IMG/VR virus record: IMGVR_UViG_3300040806_003461
Coordinates: 16,662 to 80,661 of that record
Length of the DNA stretch: 64,000 nucleotides
Source: a virus
Strand: one strand, 5' to 3'
Shown in pieces: positions 42,030 through 62,608 of the stretch (position 1 is the first letter of the stretch; the number at the start of each line of letters is the position of its first letter). The position numbers were made by a program, and so were the translations under genes. The notes under the pieces were generated by a model. That model had not been told where the DNA came from, searched no databases, and saw nothing but the letters and a program-made list of their open reading frames with translations.

Positions 42030-42581
42030 CTAATCGTTAGAGATAGTTTCAAGACTTTCTAGGTAGTCAACCATTTTTTCTGGCGTAGTGTTTTCATATG
42101 GATCATCATCAGATCCATCGTTATTGATTCCTGGCTCTTGCCACCATTTCTCAATAACACCGTTATTGATAACACACATATAACGCCAACTGCGGTTACC
42201 AAATCCTAAATGGTTTTTGCCGATAAGCATACCCATATAACGAGTAAAGTTACCAGATCCATCAGGAATTACTTTGACATTTTCAATTCCTTGCTGCTTT
42301 GCCCACGCATTCATAACAAACGCGTCGTTTACTGAGATACAGTATACCTCATCTACGCCTGCCATACAAATACGTTTATAGTTTTCTTCGAAGCCAGGCA
42401 ACTGATAAGTTGAACAGGTTGGAGTAAACGCTCCTGGCAAGCTGAACAATACAACCCGCTTTCCTTTAAACAGATCATCGCTCGTAACCATATCCCAAGT
42501 ATATGGGTTAGGTCCTTCAATAGTCTCATCCCTTACACGAGTTTGAAAAACTACGCAAGGCGGTTTAAAACCTTCAATCAT
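42030..42581 (-). CDS. Peroxiredoxin of the Prx5/AhpE-like class
   Basis: 183 residues. Catalytic motif LPGAFTPTCSTYQLPGF with the peroxidatic Cys in PTCS, preceded by GKRVVLFS and followed by DEVYCISVNDAFVMNAWAKQ, all Prx5-type. It would reduce peroxides using a host or phage thiol donor. As a phage auxiliary gene it may protect the infected cell, or supply redox balance for oxygen-using enzymes such as those in the 48.7-60 kb operon (speculative). It sits between gp42 and WYL_2 in the early nucleotide operon. Confidence 0.88.
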   Translation of the reverse strand: MIEGFKPPCVVFQTRVRDETIEGPNPYTWDMVTSDDLFKGKRVVLFSLPGAFTPTCSTYQLPGFEENYKRICMAGVDEVYCISVNDAFVMNAWAKQQGIENVKVIPDGSGNFTRYMGMLIGKNHLGFGNRSWRYMCVINNGVIEKWWQEPGINNDGSDDDPYENTTPEKMVDYLESLETISND

Positions 42582-42593
42582 ATTTCCTCCTTT

Positions 42594-43286
42594 CTATTTT
42601 ACAAGGTTAAAGTGACGTTCGTAGACGTGTAAGTTCTGAACTTGCCACACCATCATACCAGGTTCAATCATTCGGCCTTGGTCATACCGATCTTCGTGGT
42701 TGAAATCCCAACAAAGTTTTTCCATAACATATCTTTGCCACGCATAATCGTTGCGATAGCCATAGACTACATCATTACTACGCATTTGTACCACAGCATG
42801 TAACAGGCCGTCACGAATATAGTAAGTGACAGCATTGGTGCAAATGAAATCATTTTTGCCATCAGCTTCAAAATCAATCCAAATACTAGGACGATTATAA
42901 ACACAAGTAGCGCGCCTTCCATCAGGATTCTCCAATAACTCGCTTAATACATTTTCATATTGACTATAATACTGAGGTGAATAAATTAAGGTACCATAAT
43001 TAGAATTGATTTCACCATGTTGGTTTGCAGAATATTGCCAAGCCGCAGGCGATTTGCCGTAGATTTCTTTAAGAGTATTGATGTTTGTGGACTGAGTTTC
43101 GTACCACTCAATTTCAGCATCAATGTATTCTTCTTTCGGTATACCAAAGATTGCGGGCTTATCAGCAATAAAAGATGCGCCAATCAGCTCAATCGTTTTA
43201 GCACCAGTGCGGTCAATGGTATACGCTTCATCGGCAAGTTCACCGATAAAGAATTCACGCATATCTTTTACGGATGGAATATTCAT
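42594..43286 (-). CDS. 42: Deoxycytidylate 5-hydroxymethyltransferase gp42
   Basis: 230 residues, closely matching T4 gp42 (246 aa): TGAKTIELIGASFIADKPAI, GEINSNYGTLIYS, FICTNAVTYYIRDGLLHAVV, MRSNDVVYGYRNDYAWQRYV, and LHVYERHFNLV. Cys149 and Asp180 correspond to T4 Cys148 and Asp179, the residues that set nucleophilic attack and hydroxylation rather than thymidylate synthesis. It converts dCMP plus methylene-tetrahydrofolate to 5-hydroxymethyl-dCMP. ATGA overlap with the RHH gene. This is the key evidence that the phage DNA carries 5-hydroxymethylcytosine. Confidence 0.93.
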   Translation of the reverse strand: MNIPSVKDMREFFIGELADEAYTIDRTGAKTIELIGASFIADKPAIFGIPKEEYIDAEIEWYETQSTNINTLKEIYGKSPAAWQYSANQHGEINSNYGTLIYSPQYYSQYENVLSELLENPDGRRATCVYNRPSIWIDFEADGKNDFICTNAVTYYIRDGLLHAVVQMRSNDVVYGYRNDYAWQRYVMEKLCWDFNHEDRYDQGRMIEPGMMVWQVQNLHVYERHFNLVK

Positions 43287-46348: not shown

Positions 46349-47557
46349 CTAAACCTTGCGGAATATCAACGACGAATTTGCTCCGCCAAACCCAAAGGAA
46401 TTTGACATCACTGTGGTCAGTTCCGCGTCAACACTTTGACGGACAAGAGGATAATCCTCAAAACCTTCGTCGGTTTCTTGAAGGTTTGCCGTGCCAGCAA
46501 TAAAGTTTTTATTCATCATAATGATTGAATAGATTGCTTCCTGAACACCTGCTGCGCCGATACCGTGTCCTGTTAGAGACTTTGTAGAACTAATTGGTGG
46601 TATATTGTCCGGACCAAAGGCTGATCTAATGGCCTGTAGTTCCTTTGTATCACCCACTGGTGTCCCAGTTGCGTGCGCATTAATATAGTCAATTTCTGGC
46701 CAATTGGGTTTCATTGCTTTTTGCATACAACGAACAGCACCTTCGCCAGATGGATGCGCCATATCATATCCGTCCGAGGTTGCGCCATAACCGATAATTT
46801 CACAATAGATCTTTGCGCCTCGAGCAATTGCTGTATCGTAATCCTCAAGGATCAAACAGCCACTACCTTCTCCAGGAACGAATCCATCTCGGTTTTTATC
46901 AAACGGACGTGATGCCGCGGTAGGATTGTCATTATACTTTGAAGATAAAGCCATTAAAGCATCGAGCATTGCAGCAATACTATAATGATTAGTTTCAGCA
47001 CCGCCAACAAGCATACGATCTTGATAACCGTTGGCAATGGTTCTAAATCCTTCACCAATACAGTGGCCGCTTGAAGAACAAGCTGAAGAGATTGTAAACC
47101 CTTCACCATAAATCTTAAGAGCTTTTGTAAGATTTGCAGAAGTAGTAGAGTTCATAATCTTAAACACAATAGTTGGTTCTCGATGAACTCCTTTACGAAC
47201 ATAAACGTCTTGCGCATATTGTTGAAACTCAGAAGATGAAGTACCCGATCCAAAATACAAGCCAGTATCTGGGTTGCTTACTTCATTATCAGTAAGTCCT
47301 GCATCTTCAATTGCTGAAAGACAAGACAAATAACCCATTGCTGCTGTAGGACCCATCCAACGATAGTGTTGTCGGTCTACAACGTCAACCGGTTTAAAGT
47401 CGCACATGCCAGCAATATTACATCGCATGTCTACAATTGCGTAATCAGGATTATGTTTAATTCCTGAGTTACCTTCTCTTAGGTTTTTTTCTACAGTTTC
47501 AAGATCATTACCGATTGGGGATCTAATACCGATCCCCGTGACGACAACTCTACGCAC
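46349..47557 (-). CDS. fabB: Beta-ketoacyl-ACP synthase I (FabB)
   Basis: 402 residues, full length. The active site is complete: Cys160 in ISSACSSSGHCIG, His295 in NAHATGTPVGD, Lys326 and His331 in STKSLTGHGIGAAG. It resembles E. coli FabB through SKYNDNPTAASRPFD, YGATSDGYDMAHPSGEGAVR and TTVMSNSFGFGGANSSLIFR. FabB condenses malonyl-ACP with acyl-ACP and is needed for unsaturated fatty acid elongation. A phage copy could redirect host lipid synthesis or extend an acyl chain for the nearby accessory operon. It is expressed from promoter P1 at 48168-48196 with two small genes; 8-nt overlap upstream. No ACP gene is seen. Confidence 0.93.
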   Translation of the reverse strand: MRRVVVTGIGIRSPIGNDLETVEKNLREGNSGIKHNPDYAIVDMRCNIAGMCDFKPVDVVDRQHYRWMGPTAAMGYLSCLSAIEDAGLTDNEVSNPDTGLYFGSGTSSSEFQQYAQDVYVRKGVHREPTIVFKIMNSTTSANLTKALKIYGEGFTISSACSSSGHCIGEGFRTIANGYQDRMLVGGAETNHYSIAAMLDALMALSSKYNDNPTAASRPFDKNRDGFVPGEGSGCLILEDYDTAIARGAKIYCEIIGYGATSDGYDMAHPSGEGAVRCMQKAMKPNWPEIDYINAHATGTPVGDTKELQAIRSAFGPDNIPPISSTKSLTGHGIGAAGVQEAIYSIIMMNKNFIAGTANLQETDEGFEDYPLVRQSVDAELTTVMSNSFGFGGANSSLIFRKV

Positions 47558-48214: not shown

Positions 48215-48237
48215 ATGAAATTATTTCATATTTTTTT
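48215..48237 (-). repeat. Stem-loop/T-tract repeat of the early-promoter cassette
   Basis: Identical over 23 bases to 46301-46323. Here it overlaps the stop of the downstream DUF6356 gene (48221) and lies 18 bp upstream of the P1 -35. Confidence 0.65.
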
Positions 48238-48526
48238 CTCGAGCTGCGTCCTCGGCCTCAATAACTCCTCTGAGCGAAGCAATAAGTTCTTCCGCGAGTT
48301 CAACCTGTCTTAAAGTAATTCTATGAGGAGTGTTAGGAAACAAGAACGGTAGAAATGCGTGGGTATAACCTGTAATCGCATTTACCAATCCAAATGTACT
48401 CAATTTGATAGCAAACCACATATGCTCAAAATATCCAGAACGAACTTCTTGTAAGTGCTCAGTATTAATCAGATATCCATATCTGCCTAAATTACCAAAC
48501 TTCATTTCATACCTCGTGGTGCTCAA
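48221..48526 (-). CDS. DUF6356-like small membrane protein A (101 aa)
   Basis: 101 residues. Core HLQEVRSGYFEHMWFAIKLS, then NAITGYTHAFLPFLFPNTPH, the HL....GYFEH......H..lPf.f pattern of DUF6356, followed by a C-terminal helix ending in a Glu/Lys tail. One or two hydrophobic helices are visible, so it is probably membrane-associated. It is a paralogue of the gene just upstream (20-nt overlap). Function of the family is not known to me. Confidence 0.7.
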   Translation of the reverse strand: MSTTRYEMKFGNLGRYGYLINTEHLQEVRSGYFEHMWFAIKLSTFGLVNAITGYTHAFLPFLFPNTPHRITLRQVELAEELIASLRGVIEAEDAAREKNMK

Positions 48527-48719
48527 ACGTTTCGTTTACCAAGCTCGCCAGTTTCTTCGCCGCATTCATAGATGCTTTCTCCAAAGCAAATGGGAATAGG
48601 GCATGGATTGAACTTGTTACGAATACTGCTACAGACCAAATGACCATGTTTAGGCCGATCTTAATGTGGCCGAAGTATCCAGTATTTGCCTTATTTAAAT
48701 GTTGAGTTAGTGTAGTCAT
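48507..48719 (-). CDS. DUF6356-like small membrane protein B (70 aa)
   Basis: 70 residues: HLNKANTGYFGHIKIGLNMV, IWSVAVFVTSSIHALFPFAL. It shares HL....GYF.H.......(I/T)HA.(L/F)PF with protein A, so the two arose by duplication. One clear transmembrane segment. A perfect late promoter lies 28 nt upstream of its ATG, suggesting the pair is made late, perhaps in the envelope during virion release. Confidence 0.7.
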   Translation of the reverse strand: MTTLTQHLNKANTGYFGHIKIGLNMVIWSVAVFVTSSIHALFPFALEKASMNAAKKLASLVNETFEHHEV

Positions 48720-48747: not shown

Positions 48748-48755
48748 TATTTATA
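48748..48755 (-). promoter_or_regulatory. Late promoter TATAAATA for the DUF6356 pair
   Basis: Perfect T4 late core on the minus strand, overlapping the last codons of the methyltransferase gene (ends 48751) and 28 nt upstream of the DUF6356 B start. Confidence 0.7.
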
Positions 48756-49410
48756 CATACCATGGAGTAAAAGAATAAACCGGCAAAGCAGGATCCCGGC
48801 AATTCAACACCATGTAATTGAACCAAGATGTTTTTCCTGCTTCAACTTTTCTTGTAAACTTTATACGAGACATTAGATAGTTAGTATCAAACGCACTCCA
48901 TAACAGTCCGTACTTACCTTTCGTATATGATACGTTTTTCTTTTCAAAATATAAATCATAATACTTGTCACGAAACTTTTGAATAAACTGTTCGTTATCT
49001 GGATCAATGTATGTGAACACGATTTGTTTCGTATAATGGGATAGCGTTTTGAGGCAAAGCATTACCTCACAGATATCCATATGGGTAAAGACACTATTCG
49101 CAAATACAATGTCATAATATTGTGGAATAAATGGAAATTTTTCTTTAGGATTGCCGTCAGGATTGTAGTGCTCGTGATAATAATCCCAATGGATTGTTGA
49201 AACGCCAGGGTTTTCTTTTTCGCATAATCGTAATGCTTCTGTGCTTACATCAAGACAAGTATAATTTTCTGGTTTAATTTTGCCTTCGCTTGAAGCAATT
49301 AGATTACCTCGGTTGCCGCCAAAGTCTAAAATAGTCTTATCTTCATAATCGTCGACAATCTGTGTAAAAATATCAAACACATTTGCCTTTCTAAATATCG
49401 AAGAGTTCAC
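48751..49410 (-). CDS. SAM-dependent methyltransferase
   Basis: 219 residues from a GTG at 49410. Class I Rossmann motifs: TILDFGGNRGNLI (motif I), YTCLDVSTEALRLCEK (acidic loop), YDIVFANSVFTHM (motif IV). The substrate is not evident; the short C-terminal part after residue 130 (YYDLYFEKKNVSYTKG) is unusual. Last gene of the accessory operon; it overlaps the 2OG-oxygenase gene by 20 nt. A small-molecule or protein O/N-methylation role fits the oxidative enzymes upstream. Confidence 0.75.
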   Translation of the reverse strand: MNSSIFRKANVFDIFTQIVDDYEDKTILDFGGNRGNLIASSEGKIKPENYTCLDVSTEALRLCEKENPGVSTIHWDYYHEHYNPDGNPKEKFPFIPQYYDIVFANSVFTHMDICEVMLCLKTLSHYTKQIVFTYIDPDNEQFIQKFRDKYYDLYFEKKNVSYTKGKYGLLWSAFDTNYLMSRIKFTRKVEAGKTSWFNYMVLNCRDPALPVYSFTPWYV

Positions 49411-49897
49411 TTTCTTTACCTTTAATCATTTCCAACACCTCATCATAATCCATATCATCAATTGTAAAGCGGCACATAATACGCGTATCGTCAGTTTTAA
49501 CGCCGTGCAATTCTTGTACGTTTAACATAGCGCATTTGTAATATATATTATATTTATCATCAAACGTAACAGGACCTTCACCATTTAAAATAATATTGAT
49601 AGCAACAGTTGCGCCAACATCACGATGAGAATTTAAATCTGAATGCGCAGCCTGTCTATAATATCGCGGTTTAACTCGAGTCCCAATCATATGCGATAAT
49701 CTGTTTGCGATTGAATGCGCAAGATCGCAATCTACCATATCGTCAAGACGTATTACATCCATCTCTTCAAGGGTACGAGTAATTGTTCCGTTGGATGCAG
49801 TATACTTTTTAGCTCGATGAAGATTGTCGTAAAACTCATCTTTAAGATCTTCGACCAATTGTTTAGATATCGGCAAATGCGTTAGATATTTTTTCAT
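49391..49897 (-). CDS. Fe(II)/2-oxoglutarate-type oxygenase A
   Basis: 168 residues. The double-stranded beta-helix iron site is visible: His91-x-Asp93 in NSHRDVGATVAI, His131 in VQELHGVKTDDTR, and an Arg139 eight residues later as 2OG anchor. N-terminal helices and the strand NIILNGEGPVTFD are typical. These enzymes hydroxylate amino-acid side chains or small molecules. ATGA overlap with the second oxygenase gene, so two such enzymes are translated in tandem. Confidence 0.65.
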   Translation of the reverse strand: MKKYLTHLPISKQLVEDLKDEFYDNLHRAKKYTASNGTITRTLEEMDVIRLDDMVDCDLAHSIANRLSHMIGTRVKPRYYRQAAHSDLNSHRDVGATVAINIILNGEGPVTFDDKYNIYYKCAMLNVQELHGVKTDDTRIMCRFTIDDMDYDEVLEMIKGKESELFDI

Positions 49898-50478
49898 GGC
49901 AATATATCCGCCACAAAATGAATGCGATCTGTTCCGCTGGCGTTAAGTGCCGTATGGTAACCTTTATCGGTATGAGCAAAAGTCCATTCTCCTAATGGAA
50001 GATGGTATATCTCATCCTCAATAATCATAAGGCATCCTTCATCAGTTTGAATTGGATAATGAACTCGTGGTATAGGATCAATGTGCCAATTCATACAAGT
50101 ACGTGGTTTTGATTTGAGCAATCTTACACGGCCTATATTGAACCTTTTCTTTAATACATTATACATATCTTCAAATAGAGTACCGACAAACACATCGCAC
50201 AATTCCCAATCGTAAACTGAGCTAGGTTTCATTGGAATTCTAACGTCACCTTCCGGTGTATGGCGGATAAAGAAATCGCTTTTACCTTTGTCGGCAAAAA
50301 ATCCCGCTCCAAAATTAACATCATCAGTATATCCAGGAGCAGCATTTAAACAAATCTGTTCAGCACTTAATGGGTGTGAAGGTTGCAACCAAGATACCTC
50401 GCCTGTTCGTTTAAGTAATTCTATTTCATTCAATAAACCGCTAAATTTTTGGAGTGGCATTTTTTCAAAATATTTCAT
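49894..50478 (-). CDS. Aspartyl/asparaginyl hydroxylase-type 2OG oxygenase B
   Basis: 194 residues. RVRLLKSKPRTCMNWHIDPI then PRVHYPIQTDEGCLMIIEDE and YHTALNASGTDRIHFVADI give His132-x-Asp134, distal His175 and Arg185, the Asp/Asn beta-hydroxylase (PF05118-like) arrangement with the characteristic R.H.PI.T. It would use O2, Fe(II) and 2-oxoglutarate to hydroxylate an amino-acid-like substrate. ATGA overlaps with the oxygenase A and radical SAM genes. Confidence 0.75.
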   Translation of the reverse strand: MKYFEKMPLQKFSGLLNEIELLKRTGEVSWLQPSHPLSAEQICLNAAPGYTDDVNFGAGFFADKGKSDFFIRHTPEGDVRIPMKPSSVYDWELCDVFVGTLFEDMYNVLKKRFNIGRVRLLKSKPRTCMNWHIDPIPRVHYPIQTDEGCLMIIEDEIYHLPLGEWTFAHTDKGYHTALNASGTDRIHFVADILP

Positions 50479-52007
50479 AGTCCTAAAAAGCTTTCTACTT
50501 TATCATAATAACTTCTTTGCATATACGCTTTAGCGCGTTCTTTAACTGCAGGATCTTCAAACAATTGCGTAAACGTCATCTTACGTAATTCTGAAAATTC
50601 ATACCCAAGGCATTGATAAAACATAAGGAAAAAAGTTGCTACCTTAATATCGTCAATGAATTCGGCTTGTAATTTTTTAGTATACTCAACAGCCTCAACA
50701 CTGGTCCAATCGTCGCGGATCCAACGTTTTGTATCAGGCTCAACATAAAAACCGTATTCCTCGTGCCTTATAGATAATTCTGATGCTGTACCTAATTCCA
50801 ATGGGCTAAACGAATACGAATCAAATAGATCTGAGTTTTTAAATAACTCTTTTGTCCATACATCCATTGTTTCTTCATTGTCGTGTGGCAATCCTGTAAT
50901 AAAACTACCATACACACTCAGCTCTTGATTGAATACTTCCTTTGAGCGGCGGATTGTTTCAAAGATCTTATCTTTACTACAACCTTTTCCAATAGCTTTT
51001 GCCGCGTCAGGATTTAAACTTTCAATGCCTAAGAACCACGCACAGCAATTAATTCGCTTCAGATAATCAAGTTGCTCAGGATATCTTACAATTAAATCAA
51101 TACGGATAAATGCTGAAAACTGTAATTGCTCAGGAAGATTCAATTCTTCAATCGCTTCGGCAATTGCCTGCAGCTTAACTGTTTGCTCATTAAATGTATC
51201 GTCAATGATTACGTATTTGGTTGTTCCGTATAGATCATAATTTTGTTGTAGCTCGTGTTTGATCTTTTCTTTTTCTCGAAGGAACGATAAGTCGCCTTTC
51301 TTTTTACCGATTAATGGATACGCACAGAATTTACATTTAAAAATACAACCTCGGCCGAACTCAATTCCCATTGCGTCTTCAGGATTCCAAAAATCCTCAG
51401 GCACATAATTGATTTGCGAGTTTCTAAAATCAAACTGATTTCCTTTTTGGTCAAAATCAATTACCTTCGGACTTGAACCATACGCAATATTGTAATTAAG
51501 GCGTGTTCCGTTTTTTAAATGGTCAGTAATATGCTCAGCCATTGCTTCACCCATACCAACAACATAATAGTCAATACAGTCCGCAACTTCTTTTTCTTGC
51601 GCGCGATGAGCATTCATCATTCCGCCATAAACAGTCTTAACACCTTTGGCACGGATATAGTCTGTCATCTGTTTAATATCTTCATCCTGTGTCGGCCATC
51701 GCCACAGAATATTTTTTCGAGCACCGTCTCGAGTATGCCGTTTTGTATAAACATCATCGCCGCGTCTCATAAACAACGTAGAACTAAATCCACACCATAA
51801 CGTATTTTCACCAATGAGTTTATCAAGCAACTCTTCCATTCTACCGTTCTTAATCCAATGGGTAAAGTTGTTTAATACAAACACACTATACCCAAGGTTA
51901 CGCATATGTGACGCAATCTTATAACCGCCAACAGCACGTGCTACCTGAAAGATAGGATCGCTGCCTTCAGTCATAATGATAATGTCATATGGTTTATCTA
52001 TTTTCAT
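50475..52007 (-). CDS. Radical SAM enzyme with B12-binding-type N-terminus
   Basis: 510 residues. Radical SAM cluster motif CxxxCxxC at Cys221/225/228 (GRGCIFKCKFCAYPL). Residues 1-200 have the Rossmann pattern of cobalamin-binding radical SAM proteins (YKIASHMRNLGYSVFVLNNF, TVYGGMMNAHRAQEKEVADC). Residues 229-440 are the TIM barrel (YVIIDDTFNEQTVKL, FLGIESLNPDAAKAIGKG, SFITGLPHDNEETMD). B12-radical SAM enzymes methylate unactivated carbons or rearrange rings; the substrate is unknown. A canonical DxHxxG cobalamin loop is not seen, so B12 use is uncertain. Confidence 0.78.
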   Translation of the reverse strand: MKIDKPYDIIIMTEGSDPIFQVARAVGGYKIASHMRNLGYSVFVLNNFTHWIKNGRMEELLDKLIGENTLWCGFSSTLFMRRGDDVYTKRHTRDGARKNILWRWPTQDEDIKQMTDYIRAKGVKTVYGGMMNAHRAQEKEVADCIDYYVVGMGEAMAEHITDHLKNGTRLNYNIAYGSSPKVIDFDQKGNQFDFRNSQINYVPEDFWNPEDAMGIEFGRGCIFKCKFCAYPLIGKKKGDLSFLREKEKIKHELQQNYDLYGTTKYVIIDDTFNEQTVKLQAIAEAIEELNLPEQLQFSAFIRIDLIVRYPEQLDYLKRINCCAWFLGIESLNPDAAKAIGKGCSKDKIFETIRRSKEVFNQELSVYGSFITGLPHDNEETMDVWTKELFKNSDLFDSYSFSPLELGTASELSIRHEEYGFYVEPDTKRWIRDDWTSVEAVEYTKKLQAEFIDDIKVATFFLMFYQCLGYEFSELRKMTFTQLFEDPAVKERAKAYMQRSYYDKVESFLGL

Positions 52008-52008
52008 T

Positions 52009-52779
52009 TTAACCTTTTCTTGGATTTTTAAAATCTACAGGAGTGCCATCACGGCCAGTATACCAAAGCCATCCCCAATCATCAACAACGACCTGGTCCT
52101 TTGTATTAAACCAATCGTCATACACGCAAGAATCGCCTTTTACCCAAAGACAATTGTTTTCATCTACCTTCCATTCGCAATGGAATATGTTTCCAAGGAC
52201 CGTTGCATTTTTTGGTTGCTTAGTTAATGCCGCAATGACGTCAAATTTAGAACGGAATTTATGCATAATAGCATTTACTCCAATTTCAGTCATTCCCCAT
52301 ATTGTTATAACAGTTGCACCACGATCAACGAATGCTTCAATAATATCAAACGTGACAGGCTCAGATCCAACTAAAAATACTTTATCTTTTAAGTTAAGAT
52401 CTTTAAAGCCTTTTGTTCTCATCACAGCTAACGCTTGCTTCGGCGTTAAGTGCGTATGTGTATATTTATGGGCTATCTGCACATAACGATATGGGTTGAA
52501 CTTTTCAAGGTCAACAGTTGCTCCGGCCATTAAACCTGGAATTGTTTGGGCAAACAATGCGCCTGCTCTTTGTGGATTCAAACAAGTATAGATTACTGAA
52601 TTGCCAGTAATACCTTGCGTTTCAATAGCAGCGTGAGAATTTGCTATTGATTTATACGGAGGTTGAAATATTTCCTTAGGCTCTCCAGATGAACCACTTG
52701 TTTTAATTACAATCCCTTTCTCGGCGGCATCACGGAAATAATCCTCATCATAATTATCGTACCAAGTTCTTAACGGCAT
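52009..52779 (-). CDS. Minimal adenylate-forming (ANL) enzyme
   Basis: 256 residues from ATG 52779 (AGGTGA ribosome site; the frame to 52812 intrudes into the halogenase gene). ANL motifs: A3 IKTSGSSGEPKEI (25-37), A5 WGMTEIG (161-167), and WYTGRDG (239-245). Typical ANL enzymes have about 500 residues; this one lacks the first 150 or so and stops at the A8 hinge, so the C-terminal lid with the A10 lysine is absent. It may still adenylate a carboxylate or need a partner. It lies between the radical SAM and halogenase-family genes. Confidence 0.72.
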   Translation of the reverse strand: MPLRTWYDNYDEDYFRDAAEKGIVIKTSGSSGEPKEIFQPPYKSIANSHAAIETQGITGNSVIYTCLNPQRAGALFAQTIPGLMAGATVDLEKFNPYRYVQIAHKYTHTHLTPKQALAVMRTKGFKDLNLKDKVFLVGSEPVTFDIIEAFVDRGATVITIWGMTEIGVNAIMHKFRSKFDVIAALTKQPKNATVLGNIFHCEWKVDENNCLWVKGDSCVYDDWFNTKDQVVVDDWGWLWYTGRDGTPVDFKNPRKG

Positions 52780-52783
52780 ATAT

Positions 52784-53953
52784 TCACCTAAAGTAATTAA
52801 AACCAAATTCACGGTCTACGTATCGCAATACGTGATGACCCATAAATCTTTCGGTTATTGTTTTGAACATCTGATCTTCCTGATCTGCTACATATCTTTG
52901 TAATACATCAGTTTCTTTTAAATTATTTGAGGCTCGGTCTTTTGCCCAATCCCAAAATTCATTTTCATATATTGATCCACCGTGATATATCAAATTAATG
53001 AGATCTTCAACAGCACGGTAATTTAATACGCACAACTCGTTTGCTTCATCTTCATTAATTTCGCCTCTAATGTAATCCGATAAAATTTGAGTATTTTTAA
53101 CAGCCATATAAAGTGAGTTAGCACTCATAGGCTCAAAGAATACCGCTCTGTTACCATTCTTGAGCATACGTCCGTTGACTGTCTTTTTACAATAATATGG
53201 TTTAATTGGAAATGTTCTGAAGTCCTCAATATCATCCTCGGTCGCATTCGTGATACGAATAAGTTCTTCAATTGCCATTTTCTTATCGGCAAAATTATTA
53301 TTGTATAGCAATCCGTGTGAGGTGCGATGCTGCAACGGAATTACAAACATCCATCCATACTTATGAGCTACGTGACGAGTAAATCCAAAGTCAGAAGGTT
53401 CAGGATCGTCGTATACCAATGCCGAGTTTAAAATTAAATCACATTCTTTATAATCAGTAAAGTCTTGAGGTCTGCCTCGACAATCAATCACATAGTCAAA
53501 AACGCATAGCTCTTTGTTGATTGTTAATGCACAACCTGCGCTATCCCACATTGGATGGTCACCAACCTCTCCTTCAAGTAATGTATAATTTGGATAGAGT
53601 TTTTGTAATCTGTCTAAACCCATCTTTGCAAAATCACGGGCATCAAAATGAACGGCATGATAACCAGTTTGAAATGGAAAGATAATATCCTTTTCACGCC
53701 AATCAATATAATGCGTACCATATTTTGTCGTGCTGTTTAATTCCTTAGCCTCTGTGGCAAATATAAAGTCAAATGCTTGCCCAATCGCAAAGGTTACTTC
53801 TGAGGTTGTGCTTTCTCCTACGCCAAGAATTGGAATGTTTGGATCAAAAACATGAGTAACTTCACAGTCAATACCACGGTTTTTAAAATCTTTAAGAATA
53901 CAGCCGGTGGTTAAAATGCCTGCGCTGCCTGCTCCTAAGATTGCGATTTTCAT
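52784..53953 (-). CDS. Flavin-dependent halogenase-family protein (tryptophan-halogenase type)
   Basis: 389 residues. FAD fingerprint GAGSAG (7-12), family motif PILGVGESTT (41-50), a Lys77 in STTKYGTHYIDW aligned with the catalytic Lys of tryptophan halogenases, VIDCRGRPQDF, GWMFVIPLQHRT in place of the WxWxIP signature, and VFFEPMSANSLYMAV. The Glu found in the D-P-L-E-S-T-G loop of PrnA-type enzymes is missing. So a halogenase or a related flavin mono-oxygenase is expected, with a substrate other than free tryptophan. Marine phages are known to encode a flavin halogenase (VirX1 of cyanophage Syn10). ATGA with the GNAT gene. Confidence 0.78.
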   Translation of the reverse strand: MKIAILGAGSAGILTTGCILKDFKNRGIDCEVTHVFDPNIPILGVGESTTSEVTFAIGQAFDFIFATEAKELNSTTKYGTHYIDWREKDIIFPFQTGYHAVHFDARDFAKMGLDRLQKLYPNYTLLEGEVGDHPMWDSAGCALTINKELCVFDYVIDCRGRPQDFTDYKECDLILNSALVYDDPEPSDFGFTRHVAHKYGWMFVIPLQHRTSHGLLYNNNFADKKMAIEELIRITNATEDDIEDFRTFPIKPYYCKKTVNGRMLKNGNRAVFFEPMSANSLYMAVKNTQILSDYIRGEINEDEANELCVLNYRAVEDLINLIYHGGSIYENEFWDWAKDRASNNLKETDVLQRYVADQEDQMFKTITERFMGHHVLRYVDREFGFNYFR

Positions 53954-54477
53954 GCTTCACCTCTAACTTTCAAATACTTTTCTTGATTTAATAACCAAAT
54001 ATTTTGTTCCACACCGCGTACCTGTTCTTTACTAACATGACTAACGATACCATTCTTTTCGAGAATATAATATAAGCGATTTAGTCTAAGCATTGAACCG
54101 CTTGCATCGTTTTCGGTATTTGTTGTAATGTATATAGGTTCTCTATTAACAATATCAATCGCTAAAGGCAAATGGTATTTGAACATCCAACAATTCATAT
54201 GGTTACGGCTTAACCCACCAGGAATTGAATATAACTGGCATCCTCGGTACAATGCCCTATACCCATCTTTGAATTTATGTAATCCACTCACTCCAACAAT
54301 TTTATCTTCATCGTACGTGGCAAACCAGCAACCGCCACCTTTAATTGTTACAAAGAAATTCATACGCTCGAGTGAATCGTTGTTTTTAAACCCACGTTCT
54401 TTACAAGCATGGACAAATTCCATGAGATCTTCGTTTGCTTCAAATAAAATTTCTGTTCTGAATTCTGGCTTTATCAT
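53950..54477 (-). CDS. GNAT-fold acyltransferase-like protein
   Basis: 175 residues. FVTIKGGGCWFATYDEDKIV then GVSGLHKFKDGYRALYRGC is the beta4 region of a GNAT-like fold, preceded by a helical segment and followed by PIYITTNTENDASGSMLRLN. The acetyl-CoA loop (R/Q-x-x-G-x-G/A) is not clear, so it may be a degenerate or atypical GNAT. ATGA overlaps with the halogenase-family and P450 genes make it part of the same translation chain. Acylation of the pathway product is one possibility. Confidence 0.5.
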   Translation of the reverse strand: MIKPEFRTEILFEANEDLMEFVHACKERGFKNNDSLERMNFFVTIKGGGCWFATYDEDKIVGVSGLHKFKDGYRALYRGCQLYSIPGGLSRNHMNCWMFKYHLPLAIDIVNREPIYITTNTENDASGSMLRLNRLYYILEKNGIVSHVSKEQVRGVEQNIWLLNQEKYLKVRGEA

Positions 54478-55721
54478 GTGAATTTAAATTCCAAGTCCTT
54501 CCATACGGTTGTAGATCCAAACATTGCTGCCAATCTTTCAGGTTCCTTTGTAATCTCAAAGGTTTCAAATCGGTCAAGCAACGCATTCGTAATAACATCT
54601 AAATATTTTTTAACTAAAAAATCGCCAGTACAATGGTGCGGTCCATAAGCAAGCGTAACAGGATACGGCTCGTCGTCTCGTTCTAATTTAAATTCTAATG
54701 GATCCTTGTAATATTTTGGATCTCGGTTTGCGCCATACGTATATAAAAGAATACGCCCATTTTGGTCAAACTTGTATCCGTGATAGTCCATTGTTTCTGT
54801 AATATCTCGAATACCGCCTTTAAGAGGAGCAAGACGTAATACTTCTCGAGTAAAGTTTTTAACAAGCTCGCGATCCTTTTGAATTCTTTTCACAATATCA
54901 GGATGGTTTGCTAAACACATTACAAGATACTGATATAAAGACAAAGCAAACGTTGGAATCACGACAGTCCATAACGACTGAATAAACATATATCCCATCA
55001 GCTTTGGATTATCGTTATATTCCCATTGCTTATCGCTTAGGTTATATGCCATATTGACCATCGTATCTTCGTTACGACCTTCAAGCATATAATAATCAAG
55101 AGTATCGTTTACAGCCTGAGAAAACATTTTATAGAATTCAGTTGTTTCAGCAACCGGCTTATCGTAATCAAAATCTGGATTATAGTTTGAGAATACGTTG
55201 CCAGGTCTCATCCATTCGTGAAAGCCATCTTTTACTTGTTCTTCAGTTACGTCAAGCTCATCCCACGGAAATTCAATAGTCTGAATTTGCGTATCAGTTG
55301 CGATGCGTCCGATTACATCATAAGACAAAAATGGTTTGCCTTTTTCAATTGTATCTAATGAGTCATTAACATTCTTAGTAAAAATATCAAGGAAATCGTC
55401 AGCACGACGGCGAATCCATTCAAGGCTGTGCTTTTTTGCTAAATGATGATGAGGACCTTCTCGTAAAGTCAACGCATAACCTGCACGCCATATACCACCT
55501 AATGGAGTTGGATCAAACGGTGCAGGTGAAGTTTTTGCTAAGCTGAACGCTTCATTCATTTTGGATGCTTCTTTTAAGCGATCCATTGAAAAGATTATCC
55601 AATGCTTATACGTTGGGTGCCAAAAGAATCCACGCGGTTCGTTTTCAAAAAGAAACTCCGCGTGTTCATCCATTTTATAAAGGAACTCTGAACGAGTTAT
55701 ATCAAAATCAGTTTTTCTCAT
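54474..55721 (-). CDS. Cytochrome P450
   Basis: 415 residues, typical of a soluble bacterial P450. Haem signature LAYGPHHCTGDFLVKKYL with Cys364 as thiolate ligand, ExxR at Glu293-Arg296 (FTREVLRLAPLKGG), C-helix REGPHHHLAKKH, and a meander NRDPKYYKDPLEFKLERDDE. No N-terminal membrane anchor. The I-helix (FIQSLWTVVIPTFALSLYQY) lacks the usual acid-Thr pair for O2 activation, which could mean an unusual reaction or peroxide use. No ferredoxin or reductase gene is in the window, so electrons would come from the host. ATGA with the GNAT gene. Confidence 0.9.
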   Translation of the reverse strand: MRKTDFDITRSEFLYKMDEHAEFLFENEPRGFFWHPTYKHWIIFSMDRLKEASKMNEAFSLAKTSPAPFDPTPLGGIWRAGYALTLREGPHHHLAKKHSLEWIRRRADDFLDIFTKNVNDSLDTIEKGKPFLSYDVIGRIATDTQIQTIEFPWDELDVTEEQVKDGFHEWMRPGNVFSNYNPDFDYDKPVAETTEFYKMFSQAVNDTLDYYMLEGRNEDTMVNMAYNLSDKQWEYNDNPKLMGYMFIQSLWTVVIPTFALSLYQYLVMCLANHPDIVKRIQKDRELVKNFTREVLRLAPLKGGIRDITETMDYHGYKFDQNGRILLYTYGANRDPKYYKDPLEFKLERDDEPYPVTLAYGPHHCTGDFLVKKYLDVITNALLDRFETFEITKEPERLAAMFGSTTVWKDLEFKFT

Positions 55722-55738
55722 AATATAATAAAAGTTGA

Positions 55739-56050
55739 TTAAAGGTCGGCAGTCTCAGGGGAAAAAGAAATCGCCCAACCGTTACCGGTCATTGTATCTT
55801 TAACTGTTTGAGAAACACCTGCCATGAGCGTTTTATATTCAGCCGCGGCGGCATCAGTAAAAGTATTTTGAACTGTCCATACTCCATCAGCAACTGATAC
55901 CTCAGTAGTACGGCCGCCATCAACTTCTGCAGTTGCAAGAAAATCCTGTACATTTGTTGGCAACAATTCGCGCACATAACCCATTACCTGTGCTCTCGTT
56001 GCGTCAGGCATTGTAGCTGGGGGTGTAACTGTAACTGTTTGTGTAGGCAT
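55739..56050 (-). CDS. Small protein beside the P450 (103 aa)
   Basis: 103 residues: MPTQTVTVTPPATMPDATRA, QVMGYVRELLPTNVQDFL, EVSVADGVWTVQNTFTDAAA, AEYKTLMAGVSQTVKDTM. Cys-free, so not a ferredoxin. A beta-alpha-beta pattern with an Ala-rich helix after a Trp-containing strand recalls small dimeric alpha/beta-barrel (antibiotic-biosynthesis-monooxygenase-like) proteins, but the match is weak. It opens the P450 segment of the accessory operon with 17 nt to the P450 gene. Function unknown. Confidence 0.6.
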   Translation of the reverse strand: MPTQTVTVTPPATMPDATRAQVMGYVRELLPTNVQDFLATAEVDGGRTTEVSVADGVWTVQNTFTDAAAAEYKTLMAGVSQTVKDTMTGNGWAISFSPETADL

Positions 56051-56075
56051 AATTTATCCTCCGTTATTGATTTAT

Positions 56076-57833
56076 TTATTCTTCAAAGTACAGGCTAAAG
56101 TTTTTAGAAATAAAGTGTTTTATGACAGCCTTGTCTTCAATGTTTCTTGCGTTATATTTGTTCCTTGCGGCATACCATGCTTGATGACCTATTTCAAAAG
56201 ATTTTATATTATCATAGTTATGTTGAGAATGCCAATGTGCTGCAAGTCTGAATACAGGAACGTTGTTCTTAATTGTTTTATAGGAAAAGATTGTTTCGTT
56301 ATCGTACCCAAAAGATGCTCTTATATTACTAGGATACATGCTAAACTCATCTTCTTTAAGTTCTAACATTGTATCAAGCACTTCGTCAATATCTCCAAAG
56401 AAATCAAGTTGTTCCATTGATTTTTTATTGGCTATAATAACGCCAGTGTTATACGCGTAGTTTTCGTTTTCAATATCGTCGTTCGTTAGTAGTGCATGTG
56501 AATTCCAATACTTTGCTTGAGGATTACGAAAATCTTTATTATAGTTTACAAGATATTCAGATGACTTGCCATCAATTTTTAATTCCGCGGCAGTATTATA
56601 AAAACAACAAAGAGCATGGCTACAAGGAACGTGGTCAAACGCATCGGCATAACTTAAAAACAAACAGTCAAAGTCAACATACATTACAAGGTCGTAATCT
56701 TTTGTTAGCTTTTCAGTTAACCAAATCTTATATAAATTGATTACGTCATATTCTGATAATTGCGGAAAGCGTTTATAGAATTGTTCGTATTCTTCATTAC
56801 GACCGATATGAACATAATCAGCACCGATGTGTTTAGCATAATCTTTATGATTATCTAATATTTTTTCTCGGTATTTGTTTAATTGTCTTTTTGCTATTGC
56901 GCTTTTGTTTTCAGGATTATCTGAATAACCTTTTGGATTATCGAGTCTTTCCTCAGGAATATCAATATGTAAAGAAAAAATCAGTTTCGTTTTATCTTTG
57001 AAAAACCTACCAAATTGTTTATTGATAATATGTAGGATCTTTCCTTCGTAACCTTCTGCTGGTAACTCCGAATAGATTTTATGCCATTCCTCATCCATTA
57101 GTACGTATGGGATGTTGTATTCTTCAAGGATGTATGAGAATATGCTTTCGTTATTTGGATAATAACTTAGCATAATTGTACCGAAGATTGCGTCGGTTGA
57201 TAAAGCTTTATCTTTAATGTCTTCGAGCTTATTAATAATGGAAGGTAATCTATCAACAAACTGAATCTGTTTAATGTATTCAGATCTTGCTAACATAATG
57301 CCCGTATTCATTACGTGGTTATCCTTACCACCTAACAAATCTTTTGTGATATGATATTTAAGAGTAGGAGAACGTAATCCGATAACATCAAATAGCAAAT
57401 CCTGCTTGTCCTTGCCAATAATATCGTAATCTTGATCTCTAATATAAATGCCTTTGCTTAGATCTAATTCTTCAAATACGTTTTCGTCTGTATTAAATAC
57501 AACGTCCATATCAACGTACATTACTTCATCATATTCTTCAGCAAGGTTTGCCATCAAATGATGCTTATATAAATTGACCTTCGCAAATTCTAAATTTACA
57601 TCAACCTCAAAATCCTTCATCGTATTGCGATAGAAAATAAATTCAACGCCGATCTTTTCAGCATAATCTTTTTTGTTTTGTAGCAGTCGGTCAAAGTATT
57701 CTTCAATGCATTTCTGTTTGGCAATGTCAGCCTGACGAGTTGCCTTCCAATCAAGATCAACCGTTGCCTGACTTTTATTGACTTTTTCGCCACGATTAAT
57801 ATCGTCGTAAGTTGTAAATATTACTCGTTTCAT
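56076..57833 (-). CDS. Two-domain (duplicated) GT-A glycosyltransferase-like protein
   Basis: 585 residues built from two similar halves. Half 1 (1-290) has YDEVMYVDMDVVFNT with DMD at 108-110, HVMNTGIMLA and NESIFSYILEEYNIPY. Half 2 (305-585) has YDLVMYVDFDCLFLS with DFD at 387-389, YAYNTGVIIA and NETIFSYKTIKNNVPV. Both DxD sites are kept, so both domains may bind metal and nucleotide sugar. This is the GT8/GT34-like architecture. Such a pair could build a disaccharide or act on two acceptor sites, e.g. fibre proteins or an aglycone from the oxidative genes. ATGA with the methyltransferase gene. Confidence 0.75.
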   Translation of the reverse strand: MKRVIFTTYDDINRGEKVNKSQATVDLDWKATRQADIAKQKCIEEYFDRLLQNKKDYAEKIGVEFIFYRNTMKDFEVDVNLEFAKVNLYKHHLMANLAEEYDEVMYVDMDVVFNTDENVFEELDLSKGIYIRDQDYDIIGKDKQDLLFDVIGLRSPTLKYHITKDLLGGKDNHVMNTGIMLARSEYIKQIQFVDRLPSIINKLEDIKDKALSTDAIFGTIMLSYYPNNESIFSYILEEYNIPYVLMDEEWHKIYSELPAEGYEGKILHIINKQFGRFFKDKTKLIFSLHIDIPEERLDNPKGYSDNPENKSAIAKRQLNKYREKILDNHKDYAKHIGADYVHIGRNEEYEQFYKRFPQLSEYDVINLYKIWLTEKLTKDYDLVMYVDFDCLFLSYADAFDHVPCSHALCCFYNTAAELKIDGKSSEYLVNYNKDFRNPQAKYWNSHALLTNDDIENENYAYNTGVIIANKKSMEQLDFFGDIDEVLDTMLELKEDEFSMYPSNIRASFGYDNETIFSYKTIKNNVPVFRLAAHWHSQHNYDNIKSFEIGHQAWYAARNKYNARNIEDKAVIKHFISKNFSLYFEE

Positions 57834-58471
57834 TTTCCTATTACCATATATCTTTCATATTTACCAGCATCAAGAGAACCTTTCCATTCAACCTTTCGAA
57901 GACCTAGCGAATCTACAAATTCATCAAGACTATTGTGTGTATTGATATGGGATTGGATTTCGTGATAGTTGTTACCTTGAAAACAGACTAAAGTATTCGG
58001 TGCTTTCATTCGGGTCATTAACAACAAATCTTCAGGCTCCATATGCTCACAGCTTGTATTAATAATTATATCACATTTTTGTATATTGTCAAATACCCAT
58101 TCTTCAGCATCTTCAATAATACAATAGGTTCGGTCGCTTTCCATTCCTTGAAATAACAGTTTAGCAAAACGTGCCGTCTCAGGATCAGAATCAACGTTAT
58201 GAATGTGCGGGTTTGTTTCTAATTGCTCTCGTAATAATAAACTGATTAATCCGTACCACGATCCAAGGACAGCAATGTTGTTAACCTTTTTATCTATGAA
58301 TGGCATTAGGTTATTAACCAACCATTCCTTTGAAGCAAATTGGTTTTCGTTTACTGAATTGATAATGTCGTGTATACGAAAAAGGTCAACGTCAGGATTC
58401 CATTTACTTTTTTCATAAAGATCGTCAATGGCATTCAGTGCATTTCTATAAAGCAATTCTCGGTAATTCAT
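57830..58471 (-). CDS. SAM-dependent methyltransferase-like protein
   Basis: 213 residues from ATG 58471 (GGAA ribosome site; longer frame to 58495 needs a TTG). Rossmann motifs: NNIAVLGSWYGLISLLLREQ (I), VDSDPETARFAKLLFQG (II), CDIIINTSCEHMEPEDLLL (IV). Proteins of this shape with S(W)YGLI and TSCEH.E are frequent in marine T4-likes beside small GT-like genes. Substrate unknown. Overlaps the neighbouring genes by 26 nt and 4 nt. Confidence 0.7.
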   Translation of the reverse strand: MNYRELLYRNALNAIDDLYEKSKWNPDVDLFRIHDIINSVNENQFASKEWLVNNLMPFIDKKVNNIAVLGSWYGLISLLLREQLETNPHIHNVDSDPETARFAKLLFQGMESDRTYCIIEDAEEWVFDNIQKCDIIINTSCEHMEPEDLLLMTRMKAPNTLVCFQGNNYHEIQSHINTHNSLDEFVDSLGLRKVEWKGSLDAGKYERYMVIGK

Positions 58472-59060
58472 ATTCGATTCCATTATACATATCAATTGGT
58501 GCGATATAATTTTCGTTAGCTACACTGTTTACAATCCCGTCGGCAAACGTATCCAAAGCAAAACCTTCGTGAACGAGAAAGCGATCTATGCCTTTGTATT
58601 TTCGCATAAAGTAATCGCGGTTCGTCATAAAGTGATCCCATATATGAGCTTGCTGTTTTGCTGTCCACGTTATCACTGAGCTATTTATTTTTACGTCATA
58701 GGCATGTTTATCAAAATACATATCTTTTTTCCAATACGCATTGATAACTGTAAGATTATTCCATTTAATAAAATTAGATGGGTCTTCTTTAACATCCATA
58801 TCCAAATCAAAAAATAAACACTTGCCTTTAACTGGAAAATCTTTACTAAACATCGCAAGCTTATTCCACCAAAACCTTAAAGATGGTTTTTTGAGTATTG
58901 GAATAATATTGATTCTTGCATCAATATGTTGCTTGTTTTCAGTATAGCAATAAAAATCTGCGTTGGGATAATATTTAACTAATTGCTTATAAAGTCTATT
59001 TACATGTAAAGCGCTATACTTGTCGCCGTGTTTTACAAATATAATACTATCAGGTTGCAT
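58446..59060 (-). CDS. Small GT-A glycosyltransferase-like protein (204 aa)
   Basis: 204 residues: IIFVKHGDKYSALHVNRLYK, QLVKYYPNADFYCYTENK, then PSLRFWWNKLAMFSKDFPVK, GKCLFFDLDMDVKEDPSNFI. The FFDLDMDV strand is a DxD-type metal site in a minimal GT-A fold. The C-terminal YIAPIDMYNGIEYELPRI is unplaced. Homologous small GT-like proteins accompany methyltransferase-like genes in marine T4-likes, possibly for virion glycan synthesis. It overlaps the radical SAM gene by 11 nt. Confidence 0.65.
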   Translation of the reverse strand: MQPDSIIFVKHGDKYSALHVNRLYKQLVKYYPNADFYCYTENKQHIDARINIIPILKKPSLRFWWNKLAMFSKDFPVKGKCLFFDLDMDVKEDPSNFIKWNNLTVINAYWKKDMYFDKHAYDVKINSSVITWTAKQQAHIWDHFMTNRDYFMRKYKGIDRFLVHEGFALDTFADGIVNSVANENYIAPIDMYNGIEYELPRIAL

Positions 59061-60114
59061 GGTATGCTCTTAACTGATGACGCTTTTTAATTCTATTACT
59101 ACAATTGCGTGCGCATTGTGGAACAGGGTTATCTCCTTCCATACTTGCTTGTAATTTTTTCGCAAACCATTCGCTTGTAATAATATCAGATAATGTAGTG
59201 TGAAATATGTTATACTTTTCTAAGTTCTGATTATAGTCATCAGCGTATATTTCGTGGCGTTCAATTTCACGTCCATATGTTTTATCAACTCTATTTTTAT
59301 AATGGGCATTCGCATGGAAACAGCAAGGCAATACTTGTCCATCAGGATTAATCACAACCTCGTTACGCGGCCTTGCCCAACGGCATTTGATTTCATACTC
59401 GTTTTCAGATATATCTGTTCCTGATATTTTTCCGTCAGGTAAAGATTCCTGGTCGGCTCTTTCAAACGTATCTTCGTTTCCATTCTCATCAATAAACCGA
59501 TCTACCCCATCTTGAGTATGGTCAAATCTATCTGATATAACAAACGTATGAATATCAGCGCCGTGTGCTTTAACTAATTCTTTGATCTGTTCTTTATAAT
59601 CTTGATTGTGTTTAAACAAAACGGTTTGAGAACGTACCTTTGCGTTTGTATTGCTCAATGTTTCCATATTAGATAATACACGATCTAACTCAGTAAATCG
59701 TCGATACTTTTGGTGCATTTCCTGATCTATTCCATCAACTGCAAACACGACCTCAAGTTGAGAACCGCAGTATACTCCTAGATCCCACCACCAATCGTCA
59801 TTACGAATACTACCATTTGTATCAATTGAAATAAAGCAAAAGTAATTGTTGTCCACAATATACTTACACATTTCAAATAGATCCTTTGCCATTACAGGAT
59901 CACCCCAAGTTCCACAGAATTTAAACTGATTAACCTTCTTTACTTCATCTGGAGGAAATGCTTTTTTGAATGTTTCAAGATCCCATTGGATTAACGGAAG
60001 CCAACCTTGTTTTCCTAAACCATTTTTATCGGTACGATGGCACTGAGGACAACCCGCATTGCAATACGTTGAAATATCAAGAAAAACCTTGATACCTTCT
60101 GGACTCCATAACAT
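59050..60114 (-). CDS. Radical SAM/SPASM-type enzyme
   Basis: 354 residues. Radical SAM motif at Cys18/22/25 (FLDISTYCNAGCPQCHRTDK), GTWGDPVMAKDLFEMCKYIV, FCFISIDTNGSIRND. The C-terminal Cys set (CRWARPRNEVVINPDGQVLP, CCFHANAH, and PQCARNCSNRI) is the SPASM/twitch pattern for extra Fe-S clusters. Many SPASM enzymes modify peptides or protein side chains, others act on nucleotides or sugars. It is the first gene of the accessory operon and begins 7 nt after the fibre-assembly-like gene. Confidence 0.8.
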   Translation of the reverse strand: MLWSPEGIKVFLDISTYCNAGCPQCHRTDKNGLGKQGWLPLIQWDLETFKKAFPPDEVKKVNQFKFCGTWGDPVMAKDLFEMCKYIVDNNYFCFISIDTNGSIRNDDWWWDLGVYCGSQLEVVFAVDGIDQEMHQKYRRFTELDRVLSNMETLSNTNAKVRSQTVLFKHNQDYKEQIKELVKAHGADIHTFVISDRFDHTQDGVDRFIDENGNEDTFERADQESLPDGKISGTDISENEYEIKCRWARPRNEVVINPDGQVLPCCFHANAHYKNRVDKTYGREIERHEIYADDYNQNLEKYNIFHTTLSDIITSEWFAKKLQASMEGDNPVPQCARNCSNRIKKRHQLRAYHAT

Positions 60115-62600: not shown

Positions 62601-62608
62601 TATTTATA
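62601..62608 (-). promoter_or_regulatory. Late promoter TATAAATA for the 62-aa/fibre genes
   Basis: Perfect T4 late core on the minus strand, overlapping the last codons of the gene ending at 62604, 38 nt upstream of the 62-aa gene start. It may also feed the downstream accessory operon, as no other promoter is seen between 62.6 and 48.8 kb. Confidence 0.7.

Follow-up and report, generated by a model that had tools for sequence, protein, structure and literature searches.

What does a T4-like phage make or modify with thirteen consecutive leftward genes that encode radical SAM enzymes, glycosyltransferases, methyltransferases, a P450, a halogenase-type flavoenzyme, an adenylate-forming (ANL) enzyme, and 2OG oxygenases? 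The window analyzed here is a 64,000-nucleotide stretch of IMG/VR virus record IMGVR_UViG_3300040806_003461. An earlier note, made from its letters alone, had read positions 48751-60114 as one operon, flanked by fibre genes and a late promoter, whose products make or modify a specific molecule. An open reading frame check confirmed all thirteen leftward genes (Table 1). At most junctions the genes overlap by the described 4 nt or lie 1-25 nt apart, except for a few longer overlaps (11, about 35, and 20 nt) that vary with the choice of start codon. Upstream, fibre-like genes run into the thirteen genes as a continuous unit across a 7-nt gap, whereas the neighbors downstream of gene 13 are not fibre genes but two DUF6356 membrane genes (48221-48719), outside 48751-60114.

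Table 1. Features of the locus (window coordinates)
Feature	Coordinates	Strand	Basis or match
TATAAATA, candidate T4-type late promoter, 5' of fibre-like genes running into the thirteen genes	62601..62608	-	position only
Gene 1, SPASM radical SAM, mobile module	59050..60114	-	SPASM / radical SAM E 1.6e-7 / 6.6e-6; 56% in L003, 22-27% or absent elsewhere
Gene 2, GT-A glycosyltransferase (GT204), mobile module	58446..59060	-	phage glycosyltransferase family PHROG 1962, E 9e-13
Gene 3, methyltransferase-like, mobile module	57830..58480	-	no Pfam match
Gene 4, double GT-A glycosyltransferase, DxD in each half, mobile module	56076..57833	-	weak, Glyco_transf_34 E 1e-3, under cut-off
Gene 5, 103-aa ferredoxin-like protein, invariant C-terminal TADL	55739..56050	-	
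Gene 6, cytochrome P450	54474..55721	-	PF00067 E 7.5e-12; 66-80% identity in relatives
Gene 7, GNAT-fold acyltransferase	53950..54477	-	predicted fold
Gene 8, flavin-dependent halogenase-type (FDH)	52784..53953	-	Trp_halogenase E 2.7e-30
Gene 9, mini-ANL, adenylate-forming core lacking both terminal domains (N and C)	52009..52779	-	AMP-binding E 2.5e-12
Gene 10, B12-type radical SAM (B12-rSAM), C221xxxC225xxC228	50475..52007	-	radical SAM E 1.2e-16
Gene 11, 2OG oxygenase, Asp/Asn hydroxylase type	49894..50478	-	Asp_Arg_Hydrox E 1.3e-5
Gene 12, second 2OG oxygenase-like	49391..49897	-	motifs and relatives only
Gene 13, class I methyltransferase	48751..49404	-	Methyltransf_12 E 4.6e-7
TATAAATA upstream of DUF6356 genes	48748..48755	-	
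DUF6356 small membrane protein, copy 1	48507..48719	-	PF19883 E 1.1e-7; hydrophobic segment
DUF6356 small membrane protein, copy 2	48221..48526	-	PF19883 E 3.6e-10

Mapping these genes across environmental phage contigs, we found that they form two modules, a cassette of genes 6-13 and a block of genes 1-4, rather than the single operon first described. Genes 6-13 recur in near-identical order in about 20 IMG/VR contigs from about 14 lineages of uncultured T4-like phages, often with the 103-aa gene ahead and two DUF6356 genes behind, and the gene 13 methyltransferase is the final enzyme gene of the cassette in these relatives. Four independent seeds recovered the same contigs and gene order, with 15 contigs from FDH, 20 from the P450, 19 from the ANL (at least 58% identity), and about 19 from the GNAT (at least 54%), all of them fragments. 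The synteny check proposed in the earlier note thus succeeds for the cassette and points to one pathway. Moreover, most cassette genes are under strong purifying selection, with omega mostly 0.03-0.2 for P450, GNAT, FDH, ANL, B12-rSAM, and 2OGa. The genes flanking the cassette vary by lineage; FDH is absent from four contigs and both 2OG oxygenases are absent in L004, so tailoring varies.

In contrast, genes 1-4 shift position and invert among relatives, and a single thirteen-gene pathway was rejected on that ground. Within this block, gene 2 is 65-70% identical and lies, as part of a GT-MT-GT run, on the opposite strand in L007, L008, L010, and L012, gene 4 travelling together with genes 2 and 3. 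The block is probably a separate module directed at glycans. The methyltransferase MT221, like the second 2OG oxygenase, was assigned from motifs and relatives only. A nearby fabB gene had been linked to the locus as a sign of an acyl product; among the relatives, only the closest one (L002/L003) has it near the cassette, and we therefore do not count it as a cassette member.

The same gene set is absent from the cultured phage and cellular genomes searched. Among 50,697 phage records, the P450 had no tblastn match at E 1e-3 and the ANL no match, while isolate phages gave only generic 24-25% matches to the B12-rSAM. A cellular origin was also considered, and a peptide-pattern scan of GTDB, which misses distant relatives, found no relative of the P450 or the ANL. 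PADLOC, consulted for a defence system, returned nothing except one generic radical SAM match. The open-access literature yielded no article with DUF6356 and phage, and none joining P450, radical SAM, and 2OG-Fe with phage auxiliary metabolic genes.

The center of the cassette is more widely distributed than the cassette itself. Its ANL is a member of a phage family with 193 confirmed stretches, and the ANL profile matches are acyl-CoA ligases, with which the family has the AMP-binding motifs A3, A5, and A7 and the A8 Arg in common (kept in 56/56 members examined). Unlike those ligases, all 56 members lack the N-terminal part and the whole C-terminal domain with the catalytic A10 Lys, having merely 9-38 residues ahead of A3 and 15-31 past A7. 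Since relatives align only from about M12 (52779), the window protein probably starts there and would have 256 rather than 267 residues. A GNAT gene adjoins the ANL on the same strand in 40 of 48 loci, in either gene order, and was not found nearby at 10 of 56 ANL loci; in the reverse test from the GNAT, an ANL was present at 16/16 loci and DUF6356, which often adjoins the ANL as a third partner, at 14/16. As a core, ANL and GNAT, frequently joined by DUF6356, thus extend to many more phages than the cassette does, and this truncated phage ANL family with its GNAT pairing and frequent DUF6356 is newly recognized here. Next to many ANL loci we also observed sulfotransferase-like proteins, one of them fused to the GNAT, and in L073 a desaturase-like gene lies close to the triad.

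The partner, gene 7, has no Pfam match, and its AlphaFold2 model (pLDDT 88) matches PDB GNATs at E 3e-6 with TM of about 0.5-0.66. The fold is thus common to GNAT N-acyltransferases, including FeeM, an N-acyl amino acid synthase, though these matches are generic. Gene 7 differs from those enzymes in having a truncated ANL as gene partner and in that the canonical CoA loop (Q/RxxGxG/A) is not recognizable, the loop reading roughly Q-x5-6-GL[SN][KR]xHM where model confidence is 73-79. Because this loop is not recognizable and the ANL lacks its C-terminal lysine domain, either protein could act in a nonstandard way.

Among the remaining enzymes, catalytic motifs are mostly intact. Gene 12 has HxD...H in the window and six relatives, with HxD replaced by RTE in L005 and L016. 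The gene 11 triad (H132xD134 and H175) is invariant in 9/9, and C221, C225, and C228 of the B12-rSAM are invariant too. The latter shares the radical SAM core with PhpK-type (1e-20) and ladderane-type (7e-18) B12 subfamilies, its best NCBIfam profiles, but scores far under the family cut-offs, with a weakly detected cobalamin-binding domain (PF02310, E 0.028, under cut-off) and fusion to gene 12 in one ORF in 8 lineages. In FDH, the GxGxxG motif (GAGSAG) and the catalytic Lys K77 (PrnA K79) are invariant, this Lys being kept also across four distant phage relatives. The PrnA Glu346 position is Ser (EPLES to EPMSA in the cassette), and the WxWxIP region is GWMFVIP, with the first W and IP retained and the second W changed to F; according to a review, Glu346 is absent from phenol halogenases (PMC8407142). 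VirX1 of cyanophage Syn10 has been proven to be a viral halogenase (PMC8407142; PDB 6qgm). The cassette FDH has about 35% identity with the S-MS29 and S-SSM5 proteins of the cyanophage "tryptophan halogenase" (T4-GC 212), with the FAD motif and catalytic Lys shared, but in four phages whose loci were inspected the gene has no such cassette around it and is surrounded by genes for DNA metabolism or structural proteins.

The P450 heme Cys motif YGPHHCTG (C364) and E293xxR296 are invariant (11/11), and among solved structures P450tol is the closest in sequence. The I-helix acid-alcohol pair (AGxDT) aligns with VVIPT, keeping the Thr and replacing the acid with Pro, so that oxygen activation may be unusual. 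A search of nine contigs for ferredoxin (Fer2), flavodoxin, and flavin reductase found none, arguing against self-contained redox chemistry. Viral P450s are described from giant viruses and Mycobacterium phage Adler (Lamb et al. 2019, cited in PMC9405906); they too are encoded without a redox partner in the viral genome, whereas the cassette P450 sits in a conserved multienzyme cassette of T4-like phages.

An exact TATAAATA lies 26-42 nt 5' of the 103-aa gene in 6/8 loci, where the background frequency is 0.087 per kb per strand, and a TATAAATA-like motif occurs at -31 to -39 of the DUF6356 genes, in several relatives too. The motif is not enriched over the whole window (7 found versus 6.8 expected), so the late-promoter claim stands on position and relatives. 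On that footing, the candidate promoter motifs indicate late expression of the cassette.

These results suggest that some specific molecule is made or decorated by these viruses; that much of the original proposal survives through conserved synteny, mostly intact catalytic motifs, and the promoter motifs, without its thirteen-gene unit, its fabB link, or a RiPP/NRPS toolkit. Our preferred but still tentative account is a virus-specific biosynthetic cassette with acid activation by the ANL, amide transfer by the GNAT, and late, lineage-specific tailoring. The mini-ANL would bind ATP and a carboxylic acid to form an acyl-adenylate and, having lost the domain that completes usual ANL catalysis, would pass this group on to the adjacent-gene GNAT for amide formation with an amine acceptor, while DUF6356 may anchor the work at the membrane. 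The P450, the halogenase-type flavoenzyme, two 2OG oxygenases, the B12-rSAM (probably a C-methyltransferase), and the methyltransferase would tailor the acid or the conjugate, drawing on host electron donors, with the product made late, along with the virion. It is conceivable, and we advance it with some reserve, that phages evolved a two- or three-gene system for acid activation and amide formation, in which the GNAT replaces the ANL C-terminal domain, and that in some lineages it grew, by the addition of P450, halogenase-type, and B12-radical chemistry, into a natural-product pathway specific to viruses.

The families had been viewed as the toolkit of bacterial secondary-metabolite and RiPP clusters; a RiPP/NRPS toolkit in the strict sense is not supported. 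An NRPS/PKS assembly line was rejected, as no PF00550 carrier protein was present on 18 contigs, themselves fragments (controls positive 11/14), and the sole candidate RiPP precursor examined is the 103-aa protein, for which modelling predicts a ferredoxin-like domain folded throughout (pLDDT 94), which has no leader/core pattern, and which was not found on nine of 19 cassette contigs, one of them 91 kb. In a structure search, its matches were ferredoxin-like but weak, with no E value under 1e-3. These properties also weigh against an unlikely alternative in which the cassette hydroxylates, methylates, and halogenates the 103-aa protein or a tail fibre as a RiPP-like or virion modification, as do the differing neighbor genes among lineages; to our knowledge, ANL and GNAT are not a protein-modification pair. 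What speaks for such a role is that the 103-aa gene, with its invariant TADL end, lies solely and directly 5' of the P450 (10/10), that the gene 11 domain resembles peptidyl hydroxylases, and that fibre-like genes and a late promoter motif adjoin.

Remodelling of the host surface or lipids, by which ANL-GNAT and membrane DUF6356 would yield an N-acyl lipid or a surface glycan carrying an N-acyl group, serving to exclude superinfection or to time lysis, is likewise improbable, although it would accommodate the single hydrophobic segment of DUF6356, the desaturase-like and sulfotransferase-like neighbors, the acyl-CoA ligase profiles, FeeM, and fabB. Yet fabB and the generic GNAT matches carry the limits given above, and halogenase-type and P450 chemistry suit a substrate that is aromatic or resembles an amino acid no less well. 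Phages modify DNA bases via 2OG oxygenases, radical SAM enzymes, glycosyltransferases, and amino acid conjugation, but nucleic acid or nucleotide hypermodification is very unlikely here, since the gene 11 domain matches Asp/Asn hydroxylases and not TET/JBP, the promoter motifs group the cassette with late virion genes, and we know of no such pathway with an ANL and a P450. A chance pile-up, in a hypervariable region, of cargo genes that share no pathway would fit the independent movement of genes 1-4 and the 2OG domain without a metal site in two lineages; it is largely refuted by gene order and purifying selection across diverged contigs, by gene fusion, and by ANL-GNAT pairing repeated in both orders.

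Phage biosynthetic clusters are mostly known as prophage cargo in common with bacteria. The cassette would be a multistep pathway that seems to belong to lytic-type T4-like phages themselves, and the searches of cellular genomes did not find its gene families. With its minimal adenylation enzyme and that enzyme's unusual partner, it points to a molecule that matters late in infection, and it places DUF6356, a domain of unknown function, in a functional setting.

All thirteen leftward ORFs of the earlier note were found as described, but they do not form the single unit that it proposed. When all genes were mapped on related IMG/VR contigs, genes 6-13 were seen to stay together, namely those for the P450, GNAT, flavin halogenase-type protein (FDH), minimal ANL (mini-ANL), B12-type radical SAM (B12-rSAM), two 2OG oxygenases and methyltransferase, and in most of these contigs two genes for small DUF6356 membrane proteins come after the methyltransferase. 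The same contigs were recovered from each of four seeds, FDH, P450, ANL and GNAT. Variation in cassette content is orderly: FDH is missing from four contigs (L030, L031, L032 and L035) and both 2OG genes from another (L004), the order of the 2OG genes varies between contigs with the first of them, 2OGa (gene 11), inverted in L030-L032, and B12-rSAM and the second 2OG make up a single ORF in eight lineages. Genes 2-4 form a block of constant order, which in contigs L007, L008, L010 and L012 is found downstream and on the opposite strand. Gene 1 is substituted or absent in related contigs. Thus, genes 1-4 are a separate module, probably glycan-modifying.

Conservation within the cassette extends to most of the catalytic motifs. 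Omega is mostly 0.03-0.2 for P450, GNAT, FDH, ANL, B12-rSAM and 2OGa, near-identical pairs such as L007/L008 being uninformative for this measure. No variation was seen in the heme Cys and ExxR of P450, the radical SAM cysteines of B12-rSAM, the FAD motif and halogenase Lys of FDH, the ANL motifs or the metal site of 2OGa. Departures from the norm are found in the P450 I-helix, which reads VVIPT, in FDH, which is without the PrnA Glu and has Ser in place of Glu346, and in the second 2OG of L005 and L016, where HxD is lost and omega reaches up to 0.48. The 103-aa protein of gene 5 evolves faster, is found only at the P450 cassette, and has a predicted structure that is folded and ferredoxin-like; it may be a substrate, a chaperone or a carrier. 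Small proteins encoded near the ANL-GNAT-DUF6356 triad in L073 and L167 may resemble it in secondary-structure pattern.

The mini-ANL and GNAT genes are also paired outside this cassette. The ANL family alignment, which took in a 41% identical ANL from L073, yielded 193 confirmed stretches, and 80 of these were retained. Of the 48 loci whose flanks are complete, 40 have GNAT on the same strand as ANL and within 1.5 kb of it, on the upstream or the downstream side depending on the locus; DUF6356 lies within 6 kb in 25 loci. Starting from GNAT, we found ANL in 16/16 loci and DUF6356 in 14/16, including one locus from the P450 group (L119). Other common ANL neighbours are sulfotransferase-like proteins, 2OG oxygenases, PP-loop ATPases and another radical SAM; an unfused form of the sulfotransferase-resembling P-loop protein listed in the table adjoins many mini-ANL genes. 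The N-terminal part and C-terminal domain of ANL are absent from 56 non-identical proteins. Every AMP-binding motif is kept in all 56, so the truncation is a fixed architecture rather than decay.

Beyond these contigs, each absence holds for the collections and sensitivities searched. The isolate-phage collection (50,697 records) gave zero matches to P450, to the window ANL or to GNAT, only generic matches (24-25%) to B12-rSAM, and a single 26% match to a divergent ANL, on a 4.5-kb fecal contig. Relatives of ANL and P450 were not found in GTDB at the sensitivity of the peptide-pattern scans. Cyanophages commonly carry FDH relatives, as single genes.

Coordinates of the cassette, its setting and related features (L-numbers are related IMG/VR contigs or loci)
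Locus	Coordinates	Feature
Window	48751-60114	Thirteen leftward genes
Window	48221-48719	Two DUF6356 genes
Window	62601-62608	Candidate late-promoter motif
Window	46349-47557	Full-length FabB/KAS I-type ketosynthase; among loci compared, otherwise only in L002/L003, the closest relative
Window	42030-43286, 35830-37044	Peroxiredoxin, thymidylate synthase and DNA methyltransferase genes, downstream of cassette
L005	6879-7343	Second 2OG domain fused to B12-rSAM; HxD metal ligands gone, faster evolution
L016	13495-13959	As in L005
L073	8834-9121	86-95-aa protein near triad, opposite strand
L167	8855-9115	As in L073
L158	10709-11962	GNAT fused to sulfotransferase-resembling P-loop protein
L141		Same fusion, 417-aa ORF
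L163	8167-9192	Second ANL-like gene (341-342 aa) immediately upstream of GNAT-DUF6356-mini-ANL; N-terminal part present, P-loop degenerate, C-terminal truncation as in mini-ANL
L176	8167-9195	As in L163
L047	1045-5565	Collagen-like (GxQG repeat) fibre protein, 1506 aa
L047	5989-16581	Structural-type protein, 3530 aa, same phage

The window is a portion of an 80.7-kb IMG/VR fragment of a T4-type phage, on which genes for baseplate wedge, hub, tail tube cap and clamp loader are recognisable. The closest isolates, at 33-56% identity, are Sinorhizobium phages phiM12/phiN3, Caulobacter Cr30, Stenotrophomonas DLP6, Methylophilales Melnitz and cyanophages. The ketosynthase gene is possibly a separate metabolic gene. 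Exact TATAAATA occurs 26-42 nt upstream of the 103-aa gene in 6/8 loci, and variants precede other 103-aa genes and DUF6356. In the window, the motif stands upstream of fibre-like genes that continue directly into the thirteen genes. The position of the motif supports a predicted late expression of the cassette.

The broad proposal of the earlier note, a specific pathway encoded by the phage and expressed late, is strengthened, while its unit, partners and likely chemistry are redrawn. In the mechanism we propose, mini-ANL would adenylate, GNAT would perform acyl transfer, DUF6356 would provide membrane tethering, and the remaining cassette enzymes would tailor, relying on electron donors from the host. 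Since Ser stands for Glu346 and phenol halogenases offer a parallel for the loss of this residue (PMC8407142), there is a weak hint of a phenolic substrate. Because the pairing of ANL with GNAT and DUF6356 recurs across many loci, we conclude that the P450 cassette is one elaboration of a broader phage theme built on the ANL-GNAT core.
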